A stretch of 64,000 nt of DNA from Monosiga brevicollis MX1. Its lineage: Eukaryota > Opisthokonta > Choanoflagellata > Craspedida > Salpingoecidae. This document shows positions 17,165-61,521 of the stretch, piece after piece. The stretch lies in contig NW_001865074.1 in assembly GCF_000002865.3 (NCBI RefSeq), forward strand, positions 111,722-175,721, written 5' to 3'. The notes under the pieces are model-generated. The model worked only from the letters and a program-made list of their open reading frames with translations. It searched no databases and was not told the DNA's origin. The position numbers and the translations under genes were made by a program. Each line of letters starts with the position of its first letter. Position 1 is the first letter of the stretch.

Positions 17165-20125
17165 TCAATTCCGGCTGGCATTCTCCAGCTCCTCGTTGGG
17201 CTTTTCCCGCTTGGCCGCGTGTGGATCCGCAAAGCTACCATAAATATTGCAAGGCGAAAGAATGAGGGATGATAAAAATGCAGGCGGAGCCGCTTGGTGT
17301 TCAACCCGCACACTTGCGCACACTTACTCATCTGCATCTTCATTGCTGGTCTGTGTCCATTGTGTCATTTTGAGTGTTTCATGAGGAGACTCCGCCTCGC
17401 TCGTCGAGGCACTAAGTTTGAGCAAAGTTGAACACAGAATGCGGGTAACACAAACGATGCTTTGAGTCTGCTTGGGACTTCTTCGGGTTTCGTTTCCAAG
17501 AACCTGCCTTTCAAGGATCACAAGCAGCTTACCGTGTCGAATTCTTCTTGTGCAGCAGAAAATGCATTCGAATGCCTTCGGCCGTACCACAAATTGTGAT
17601 CAACTCTTTTTGATCCAAACCCATTAAAACAGATCCTGGGCACATGGGCGAGCACATTTTGTTGTTCATCAAAATCAAACGAGTCCTCGTTTCGAGCCAA
17701 ATCAGAAGGCAGAGTTGTCCTTGAAGGCACAACGGCAGAAGCAAAGCCAGCCTGTCCAAGCCGACGTACCATCATAATGTTCAAGGTCATGTAAAAAGTG
17801 ATGAAAGTGATTGTGAAAAAGCCACCGCTGTACATCGTCGGTTGTGCTCTGTGCTGTGAGCGTCACAGGGTCACTGGGACGCATGGGTGACGACTGTGCT
17901 CGGTGGGTGCGATCCTGCGGCGGCGGCAATGCTGCCGCCACGTCTGCCATCAGGGATACGCTGGAGGTAGGGGGCAACTGCATATTGGACGGTGAATGTG
18001 CGGGTGCCGGCCCCACGGAACGGCTAGACGTGTGGCCCGAGCGGAGCGAATCCAGCGAAAGCCGATCAAGAAGATCGTTATCTGCCAGGTCCTGAAATAA
18101 GTGGGAGGCCTGATCAATGCTCAAGGCCTGCAAGTTTTGATCCAGGGGTGCTGCTGTAGGCATCATGTGGTTTCCAGCACCCGGGATGGGCTCGCCACCT
18201 TGATCGCGCGCTTGCGCCGAATGGTTTGATGCTGCTAACGCGGTCGAATTGGAAGGTAAAGATGACTGCTGGTTTGGTGAGACAGCGATATTGTTTGCCC
18301 CGACGAAAAGGCGCTCGGGTATCATGTGAGGCTGTGGTGATGGCGAGTTTAAGGTCCAGTTCCCGGAGGGTATCGCTAGCGATGGGGTTGAGTGCTGATC
18401 GGGAACAGAAGCGCCGGCGACTTCGGTAGGTAGAGCTGGGCGGCCAGTAAATATTCAAGGGATACGTCAGCAGAGCCATGAGTCCAGAGCACGGGCGAAA
18501 GGAAAAGCGGCCGGCCCCAAGGAACTTTTAAGCAAAGAAAGGGTGGTAATAATAATCTACCTTGTGCTGCGTCGTGTGGCCGTGGGTGGGCCTGTGTCGA
18601 GTTGCTGCTCGGTAGGTATAGGCTTGGATTCACGGGCGCGGCAGTATTTAGGCTGGAGGTGGCTGCCAGTGTTTGTGGAGGAACCGCGGACGGGGCTAGA
18701 GGGCGTAGCGTGATGGGTTCGGGCAGTATCGACGGTACAGAAGTTTCGGAGAAGACTACGACCTCGTCATACTTGGCAATGTCCAGACCTGCCTTTGTGA
18801 GCTTGGCCAGATCTGACTGTAAACGCTTGCGGATGATGCCCTTGCCAGCAAAGACCTTGATGGCACAAAAACAAGAGTGTACGGGAACGCCGGAGGCCTT
18901 GAGAGCCGTGTCAACGCGCAATGCCAGCGTCACACCAGCCTGTCCGCCTCGCCCAGATACAAAGGTAGTACTAAGACAGTTGATCTAGTTGAAGGGTGTG
19001 TATGGAGGTCAGCCAAGCAGAGGTGCGATGTGCTGTCCAAGCGGATGGGGAGGTCAGAAACAAGTCACCTGAAAGCCAAAGCTGGCCCGCTGGCGCCCTT
19101 CCCAGTCAAAGGAGATACAACCCAGGTGCTGATCCGCCTCGTGGCCAATCTGAATGTGGTCCACAGACTGGGACATGTGTTGCACTGTAACAAAAGAAAC
19201 AAACACACGGATCAATGAGAGCTGGACCGATCGTTTGGTAGGGTCTAAACGGCGAGGGTGCTTCAAAGAGATGAGCGCGAGGCGAGGGCTGACCGTATTC
19301 GAGCATGGTTTGGTCCGGGTGTGATTTGTGCCAATCCTCGATAGCTGTCTGGGCCTGGGCGGCCTTGACAATGTCCATGATGCGCAGCGTCAAGCGGGAC
19401 TGTTCATTGAACAAGAGGCCATGAGATGCGATGCTTCAAGAGTAGTTACACGGAGCAAAACACAGCGATTGGAATGGGTAGCGGAAACCGGGCTGGTCTG
19501 GCAACGGACCGTGAGTTGCTGCGATGTGCTGCTGGACAACTGCAGCGCGTAGGGTTGAGCTACGACGAGGGTGCAAGCGCAGATGAGAGAGCGGGGCCAG
19601 GCGGGTAAGCACACCAAATCGCATAACGGTCGGTTGACCTAGCAAACCTACTTTGCGCCATGTAGGTGACATTGACGAGCTGGCTGCCAGACTTGGTGGG
19701 AATGGTTTCGGCATTGAGAGCGCATTCCACACTAGCACAGGGGATGGCAGTTGAGCATTGGCTGAGCGGCGTGGAAAAGGGGACATGAGCGGAGCTGCAA
19801 CATTGGTACAAGCTGAACACCAACCTAGGCCGAAGGCTTGTCTCCGTCTCGCTCGTGGTTTCACTTTGAAGACTGTGATTGGTCGATGAATCTGTGGAAA
19901 GAAGGCAGGGTCGTCATGTGCGGCACGCCGTTTGAATGAGGGGACGTGCGATATCGAGCCGCGCGGGTACGCGGGCCCTTGCCACCACTTCATTGCTAGC
20001 AGCCTGCCAACGCTACCTTCAAGAGCACAGCTCAGATTGCTCAGATCATCTAGATGGCTGGCTGCGCTGGGCGCTCGACTCGATGCCTGGCGCGGCTGCT
20101 CCAAGCCTGGCAGTGAATGGCTCAT
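17165..20125 (-). CDS. TFCP2: CP2/LSF-type (TFCP2-like) transcription factor with SAM domain
   Basis: Multi-exon minus-strand gene. From the N-terminus: a non-conserved stretch, then exons within about 19050-19750 (ALNAETIPTKSGSQLVNVTY, QPYALQL, FNEQSRLTLRIMDIV, HEADQHLGCISFDWEGR) that track the CP2 immunoglobulin-like DNA-binding domain. Around 18740-18960 GVTLALRVDTALKASGVPVH and FCAIKVFAGKGIIRKRLQSD match the end of the CP2 domain. A Pro/Ser/Asn-rich linker follows (18000-18700). Near 17790-17870 DVQRWLFHNHFHHFLHDL begins a SAM-like domain continued by ELITICGTAEGIRMHFLL (17530-17620). A short acidic, Lys/Glu-rich C-terminus ends at 17165-17167. The SAM domain favours the LSF/CP2 branch over Grainyhead. 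Known role: sequence-specific RNA polymerase II transcription factor. Start uncertain: 20125 (MSHSLPG) or in-frame 20203. Convergent with CDC40. Confidence 0.82.
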
Positions 20126-57267: not shown

Positions 57268-57815
57268 TTAGTCAAAGAGGTCAAATCCACCCATGGCCTC
57301 GTCCTCAGACTCAGACTCGGGCTCGGCCTGCTTGGCAGCGGCGGCTGCCTTGTCGTCGCCGGCGGCTCCCTCAGCAGCGGCGGCTCCCGAAGCGGCCGAA
57401 CCGCCACCCAGGTGGCAGATCAGCACAGCCGACTTGGGGGTCACGGGGCTGTTGTTGACCATCATGGGGCCAGTCCACGAGTTGGCCTCGCGCACCTTCT
57501 ACTTGACACAGTCGCCAATCGTCCCGGCCCATCGATATAGCACGATACAAGATAAAGTAAAACCAAAAGAAACAAGAAAAGAAAGGAATGAGACCCGCCA
57601 AAGATACAAACGCGCACTCCACAAAGGCTGTCCAAAAGAATGACAGATGGCAAACGAAGAAGCAAGTGCGATCACGACAACGCTGCCCGTACCTCCTTCA
57701 AGGTCTTCTCGAGCTCGAGGGCGGTCGCACCCTCGGCCACGGCAAAGTCCTCATCGGTCGTGCACTTGGAAGTCCACTTGCCGCCGTCCTGCTTCAAGAT
57801 GAAAATGTGAACCAT
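57268..57815 (-). CDS. RPP3: P3-type acidic ribosomal stalk protein (plant RPP3-like)
   Basis: Two exons, 57815-57693 and 57498-57268, are split by a 194-base GT-AG intron in phase 0 and give about 117 residues. Exon 1 reads MVHIFILKQDGGKWTSKCTT with a following EGATALELEKTLKE. Exon 2 reads KVREANSWTGPMMVNNSPV, PKSAVLICHLGGG, an Ala/Gly-rich hinge, and the tail ESESEDEAMGGFDLFD. The tail is the universal P-stalk terminus (ESDDDMGFGLFD-type) that recruits translational GTPases. The N-domain is not P1 or P2; it matches plant P3 (VFTFVCR..GGEWTAKQ, YELQRKL, SMVSPSSAVF..I.GG) in motif order and length (about 119). Expected role: acidic component of the 60S lateral stalk bound to P0. Incorporation into ribosomes here is inference. 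Confidence 0.85.
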
Positions 57816-59236: not shown

Positions 59237-61521
59237 ATGACTCACTTTGTGCGTGCTGCGCCCTGCTGCTCAGTCACCGGCGATGTACCCAAGGTGGCGG
59301 TCATCTCGCCCAAGTCTGGTGCAGGTTCGTCATTCAACGTCGGAAATCGTCCAGCGCAACTTGTGGGCTTTCGACCCTTTGGCCGTCCGCTTATGCCTTT
59401 CCTCCGCCGCGCGTATGATGGCCATACCCAGTGTTTGAGAAGACGGTGATTGAGAAGCACGTTGCTTCTGCTGGCACCGATCCCATCAATGATGAGCCCC
59501 TCGATGTCAGCGAGCTGATTCAGATTCAAGGTTGGCGCTGCAACCGAGCACCTCTCTCTCGTCGCCTTGCCTCGAGCTGGCGCTTTGGTGGCAACCCCCA
59601 CCAACATGACTGGACTTGGTCCCGGCACAGCTGACTTGATTTAATGTTTCTTCTTAGCTCCTGAATTCAACGTGCCGCGTGCACCTGCTGCAACCAGCCT
59701 GCCCTCGCTCCTCAAGACGTTCCAGGATGAATGGGTCAGTGGTGCCATCACGCCTGACCTGATTTCCCGAGCGCCCTCATTCGTGTCTGACAACGTGTCT
59801 CTCATTTGGTCTCATCCCGGCATGCCTCAATCGTTGGTCGTGTGCTGCGCCGCTGGCCATCAGGATGCTGCCATGCTCGAGACATTCGAGCTGAAGCGCG
59901 AAAACCACAAGCTCACGCAAGGTGCGAAGATCACACTTGCGTTTCAATACGCCACTGATCCCTTGCTTTCGCTCATGGCCCCGCCCTTGATTCATCACCC
60001 GCACCCGGACATGTGCGCTTGCCCCCTTGGTGCCATAGAGCTCACACAGTCTCTGTACCAGCACGATGCCGCGACTCGCGTGATTGCACGCCTGATCAAG
60101 GAGCGTGATCAGGCTCGTCAGGCCCTCGAAAGCCTGCAGGCATCAGGTGTTGCTCCTGCCAACAACGCTGCTCCCGCCGCACAGTCTGAGGCCATGGACG
60201 CCAGCAGCGATGAATCCGCATCTGGTCTGAGCCCTGAGGTGGTGGCCCGCATCGACCAGACTTTTGCCCAGCTCAGCCAGGCTCGCCGCAAGCGCGAGAA
60301 GAACCCCGAGGGACTTGCTACCCCCGAGCAGATTGGCACTTACAAGCAGCAGGAGGTTATCAAGGGTGTACACAGCTCGCGTTCAGGCAACATCCACTCC
60401 CTATCCTACCGTGCTTCTGACAACATGCTCCTCACCAGCTCCTCCGACAAGACGGCGGCCCTTTACAACCTCGAGTCGAAGGAGGTCGTCGCTCACTACA
60501 AGGTACCCTTCTATTGCTGCTTCATCCGTTCCAACCAATAGCAAGCTGGCTCCCCCGCCGCTCCTCCATTTTTTTTTTTTTTTTTTTTTTTTTAAATTCC
60601 TCGCTGACCGTCACACTTGCTGATCAACACAACCCAACGTTTTGGACCCGCTCGTTTTGAATACTCGGAATCCACCATGTCCAGGGTCATGGCAAGAAGG
60701 TCTTGGATGCCCGCCTTCATCCCACTGCCGACGTTGCCGTGACCGGTAGCGCCGATAACCACGTCAAGATTTGGACCGCCTCCACCGGCGAGAATGTCGC
60801 TACACTCGAGGTTGGTCCATTTCACCCGGTGTGCCAGTACTGTCCTGGTGATCTTATCCAGTTGTACCACTACCTGCTCGGACCGCCTCATGCCCATGAA
60901 CAACGCACCCTGTGCTGTTTGAACACGCTTGTAGATGCATTCCCAAGCCGTGAACAACGTCAACATCCACCCCGAGGGCCAACTCGTGGTCAGCTGCAGT
61001 GACGACGGCTCATGGGCCGTGTCCGACATCGCCACACAGAGCAACATCACCCTGGTCAACGATGCCAAGGCCAAGAGCATCAAGGCGCTGCGCGTCCATC
61101 CTGACGGCGCCATCCTGGGCGCAGGTAACGAGAGCAGCACCGTCGGCATCTGGGATATTCGTACTGCCAAGTGTGAGGCCAGCTTCGAGGGCCACGGTGG
61201 TGCCGTGACCAGCCTTGCCTTCTCGGAAAACGGTTACCACATGGCCACGGGTGGCATCGACAGTACCGTTCGCTTTTGGGATCTGCGCAAGCTCAATGCT
61301 TTCCACACGCTCGAGTTTGATGCTGGGCACGAGGTGCGTGGCCCCAAATTCCTTGGCCCCCACGTGCTTCTGATTGGTACCTGATTGCCGGCTGGCCCAT
61401 TTTTGCTGTCGGCACTTGCTCACACTACCCCACCTGGAACCGTCACAGGTGAACAGCGTTGCCTTTGACCACAGTGGCCAGTATTGCGCTGTTGGTGGCT
61501 CTGACGTTCGGTGCGTACCCC

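Follow-up and report, generated by a model that had tools for sequence, protein, structure and literature searches.

Whether the ribosomal stalk protein P3 occurs outside plants is the question raised by a gene in the 64,000-nucleotide stretch of Monosiga brevicollis DNA analysed here (the window). The founding paper on P3 is reportedly that of Szick et al. from 1998. Open-licence papers that use the term "acidic ribosomal protein P3" are all on plants, as far as their titles and the starts of their abstracts tell; one paper on Plasmodium P2 names P3, as a plant protein. One open-licence paper, PMC2871058, contains both the word Monosiga and the words acidic ribosomal. Among the titles of the open-licence matches listed, none reports P3 in a choanoflagellate or in another non-plant. 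The protein is called plant-specific in passages of PMC7075923, PMC5557506, PMC3585428, PMC7332886 and PMC8096920, in agreement with the sequence-only reading of the locus, which had taken P3 to be treated in this way. Reviews, in the passages concerned, count it as the single family of ribosomal proteins that plants add to the 79 shared ones (PMC3585428, PMC7332886). From the evidence set out below, we conclude with a probability of about 0.8 that M. brevicollis has a gene encoding a P3-type ribosomal stalk protein beside P0, P1 and P2.

The gene lies on the minus strand and has the following parts.

57693 to 57815, minus strand: exon 1, with the ATG and residues 1-41 (MVHIF...TLKE), the first half of the P3-type N-domain
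57499 to 57692, minus strand: intron of 194 bases with GT-AG ends (GTACGG...AAGTAG), placed from the DNA alone
57496 to 57501, minus strand: tandem acceptor TAGAAG, of which the first AG gives 117 residues and the second AG 116 residues
57268 to 57498, minus strand: exon 2, coding for residues 42-117 and closing with the TAA stop (57270-57268)
57403 to 57498, minus strand: the rest of the N-domain, residues 42-73 (KVREANSW...SPVTPKSAVLICHLGG), from the alignment with plant P3
57274 to 57402, minus strand: residues 74-116, forming the hinge and the acidic P-protein tail, matched by PF00428

The start ATG is at 57815. Exon 1 closes at GAG/GTACGG and the 3' end of the intron reads TGTGTCAAGTAG, with the second AG of the tandem acceptor sitting 3 bases past the first. 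Read from the DNA, the full product is MVHIFILKQDGGKWTSKCTTDEDFAVAEGATALELEKTLKEKVREANSWTGPMMVNNSPVTPKSAVLICHLGGGSAASGAAAAEGAAGDDKAAAAAKQAEPESESEDEAMGGFDLFD, of 117 residues. Its motifs follow one another in the order F5, GGKWTSK, ELEKTL, SPVTPKSAVL and GGG hinge, and the C-terminus ends in ...ESESEDEAMGGFDLFD before the TAA stop. The two-exon minus-strand gene proposed by the sequence-only reading at 57268 to 57815 is thus borne out, with correct coordinates and all of the named motifs present in the DNA; the predicted product also has the proposed length of about 117 residues and the universal P-stalk tail. Reading of the DNA confirms a real gene of two exons with a predicted product of 117 or 116 residues.

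A PF00428 search of the genome, covering 39.5 Mb in 57 contigs, gave five matches, all above the cut-off of 28.1 bits. Four are P1 (C38), P0 (C52), P2 (C48) and the P3-type gene (C21, on which the window takes up 111722-175721). The identity of host P1 and P2 is confirmed by comparison with the PDB, while P0 was read from its frame. Since P0, P1 and P2 each have their own gene, the P3-type gene is an extra stalk gene, present on top of these three. A protein search brought up no second copy of it; in the same search, a tail match on C41 reached 14.3 bits (E 1.77). The fifth PF00428 match (C46, 28.3 bits) was set aside, three long frames nearby being read as tandem repeats. The stretch C46:668274-671417, near this match, is a tandem repeat that is open in several frames.

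The protein carries both the hinge and the conserved acidic P-protein tail. In the genome search the tail scores 30.9 bits against PF00428, above the cut-off, and in a Pfam scan of the whole product the match is 21.7 bits (E 3e-4), below the 28.1-bit cut-off. Pfam coverage is confined to the tail, as it is for Arabidopsis P3. The C-termini of host P0, P1 and P2 are all MDGFSLFD and that of the P3-type protein is MGGFDLFD, so that M-x-G-F spacing is common to the four. In human P1 the M is followed directly by GF, and the M-x-G-F form of the tail is the host's own. The FDLF of the P3-type tail is also found in the Arabidopsis P3 tail as printed in a passage of PMC2778640.

The yardstick for the N-domain was a set of presumed plant P3 letters, on which all comparisons with P3 rest. 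When six of the presumed plant P3 strings were looked for in open-licence papers, the Arabidopsis tail was the only one matched in print (PMC2778640). Against three presumed plant P3 sequences, the first approximately 74 residues give local scores of 86, 75 and 85, none of which is reached by any of 5000 shuffles. Human P1 and P2 give 31 and 25, and the P1 and P2 of the host 20 and 25; these scores are reached by 212, 1256, 3558 and 1241 of 5000 shuffles, in that order. The N-domain thus resembles plant P3 as presumed, and an N-terminal domain of P1 or P2 type was not found.

Profiles give the same order. With a P3 profile built from the three presumed plant sequences and P1 and P2 profiles built from one human sequence each, the N-domain scores 27.6 bits for P3, 0.2 for P1 and -1.4 for P2; the best of 2000 shuffles reached 7.7, 7.4 and 7.2 bits, respectively. 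The N-domain therefore fits P3 best, as the sequence-only reading had proposed in placing it with P3 and not with P1 or P2, within the limits of the presumed plant letters. Clear as it is, the match to P3 falls far short of those of host P1 and P2 to the profiles of their own families, which score 95.7 and 103.6 bits. Use of the second acceptor AG slightly improves the agreement: the 116-residue form scores 95, 79 and 88 against the three presumed plant sequences, where the 117-residue form scores 86, 75 and 85. The shorter form loses one alignment gap, leaving an alignment over the full N-domain with a single two-residue gap. On these comparisons of predicted protein sequence, whose main weakness is the presumed plant yardstick, the identity of the protein as P3 is well supported.

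A PDB search with the N-domain returned no stalk protein, its best matches being designed proteins (E 0.011, residues 22-53), and the presumed plant P3 N-domain matched nothing in the PDB, where no solved P3 N-domain was found. When a profile of the plant sequences and the window protein was run against the PDB, the P-protein matches spanned the hinge and tail and none covered the body of the N-domain. An NCBIfam scan of the protein gave weak matches alone, far below their cut-offs, and no relatives were confirmed in viral, prokaryote or plasmid collections. Two single-sequence AlphaFold models, of a confidence too low to build on (mean pLDDT 54.7 and 52.5), give the N-domain two strands followed by a helix and another strand. 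The N-domain of P1 and P2 is helical and differs from these strand-containing, low-confidence models. In a Foldseek search with the low-confidence single-sequence model, no match reached E 0.001.

Two other accounts of the protein itself have to be weighed against P3. A strongly diverged paralogue of P1 or P2 would explain the tail, which is common to all stalk proteins, and would fit a short stretch at the hinge, from residue 65 on (AVLICHLGGG), that resembles human P1, the best of the four P1 and P2 controls (z 2.1). Over the N-domain, however, the P1 and P2 profile scores fall inside the shuffle range, and the host already has an ordinary P1 and an ordinary P2. With N-domain scores at noise level, we reject this account as very improbable. 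The N-domain might instead be unrelated to P3, a lineage-specific domain fused to a P-tail whose likeness to P3 arose by chance or convergence. The plant P3 letters are presumed and just 34% identical to the choanoflagellate N-domain, and a search with the presumed plant N-domain brought up nothing from the host genome, an empty answer that is uninformative given the coarse, exon-by-exon search. The likeness nevertheless runs over the full length of the domain, interrupted in the 116-residue form by one gap of two residues, and the plant P3 score was reached by none of the 5000 shuffles; a domain unrelated to P3 is unlikely. A P3-type protein remains our reading of the gene.

If the protein is P3, the gene could have reached the assembly in more than one way. 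Algal or plant contamination has a single point in its favour, namely the unexpected family. Against it, the gene sits approximately 169 kb into a contig of 333 kb, base composition is even across the window, and the same window holds a Prp19 exon approximately 2 kb away and a CP2 and SAM_3 pair approximately 39 kb away. The Prp19 splicing factor exon lies at 59645-60538 on the plus strand, opposite to the P3-type gene; the CP2 transcription factor and SAM_3 exons, of a grainyhead/CP2-type gene, lie at 17705-18984 on the minus strand, CP2 being a family typical of opisthokonts. The tail and the codon use of the P3-type gene are also host-like. Measured against host P0, its codon adaptation is 0.62, compared with 0.74 for P1 and 0.71 for P2; five further coding pieces of the window range from 0.25 to 0.54. 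With P0-P2 together as the reference, the value is 0.61, and 2000 random synonymous versions of the gene average 0.21 with a maximum of 0.36. An algal contig, which the sequence-only reading had named as a danger to its own proposal, is accordingly rejected on mid-contig position, even composition, neighbours and host-like codon use, and contamination is exceedingly improbable, the least probable of the alternatives considered here. Elsewhere in the genome, on C53 (1501-2007), is a gene with a STING ligand-binding domain (PF15009, E 1.9e-36), and the solved STING chains found for it are no more than distantly similar. A 57-residue fragment of the Unc18 gene of the genome matches UNC18 of PDB entry 2XHE (chain A) at all 57 positions, in support of M. 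brevicollis (Choanoflagellata, Opisthokonta) as the host.

The same P3 protein could also have been acquired horizontally, the donor being an alga on which an ancestor of Monosiga fed, a history suggested by the fact that P3 is otherwise described from plants. Identities to Arabidopsis argue against a recent green donor: with the presumed plant letters, the N-domain of the P3-type protein is 34% identical (24/71), whereas host P1 reaches 49% and host P2 55%. Between Arabidopsis and maize, the presumed P3 N-domains are 69% identical. The host-like codon use and tail speak against transfer as well, and "ribosomal protein" has no match in the main text of PMC4046809. We regard algal transfer as possible, a distant donor included, with the odds against it. 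Since the 34% identity lies below the values for P1 and P2, an old divergence fits better than recent acquisition from a green alga. P3 would then be an old eukaryotic stalk protein that predates the split between plants and opisthokonts and was lost in animals and fungi, and the choanoflagellate stalk would comprise P1, P2 and P3; to this history we give an even chance.

What an additional stalk protein might do can be proposed from its parts. The N-domain, which differs from that of P1 and P2, may attach the protein to the base of the stalk or to the P complex, or may bind RNA. The flexible hinge and tail would provide one more arm, or bait, for recruiting translational GTPases and whatever else binds P-tails. 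Serines beside acidic residues in the tail are likely phosphorylation sites, by analogy with the Arabidopsis P3 tail phosphopeptide printed in a passage of PMC2778640. Among the plant proteins, AtP3B is described in a passage of PMC5557506 as a chaperone of both proteins and RNA. The P3 reading of the gene predicts an altered stalk composition in M. brevicollis.

A P3 in a choanoflagellate, a close single-celled relative of animals, would mean that a part of the ribosome may have arisen earlier than assumed, or passed more readily from one lineage to another. If the reading is true, the extra family in the plant count would reflect loss or transfer and not an invention of plants, and M. brevicollis would offer an organism outside the plants, one that grows in culture, for testing where P3 sits on the ribosome and what it does there.

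Compared with known stalk proteins, the predicted product is closest to plant P3, as represented by Arabidopsis RPP3A (At4g25890) and RPP3B (At5g57290) and by maize P3. The N-domains can be aligned over their full length and share the GG-W-K, SxVxPxSAV and GGG features, and the proteins have in common a hinge, a length near 117 residues, an FDLF tail as in Arabidopsis P3 and a Pfam match limited to the tail. The choanoflagellate protein differs from plant P3 in its N-domain identity of 34%, in two extra residues before the helix, in the host-like M-x-G-F spacing of its tail and in its choanoflagellate host. With P1 and P2 it shares the hinge and the acidic C-terminal tail; in contrast, its N-domain resembles theirs at noise level, and ordinary P1 and P2 are encoded by separate genes. 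The likeness to P0 (uL10) lies in the C-terminal tail, whereas the P3-type protein is far shorter and lacks the P0 body, and P0 too has a gene of its own. The comparison gives good support to the view that the gene adds a member to the known P3 family, in an unexpected lineage.
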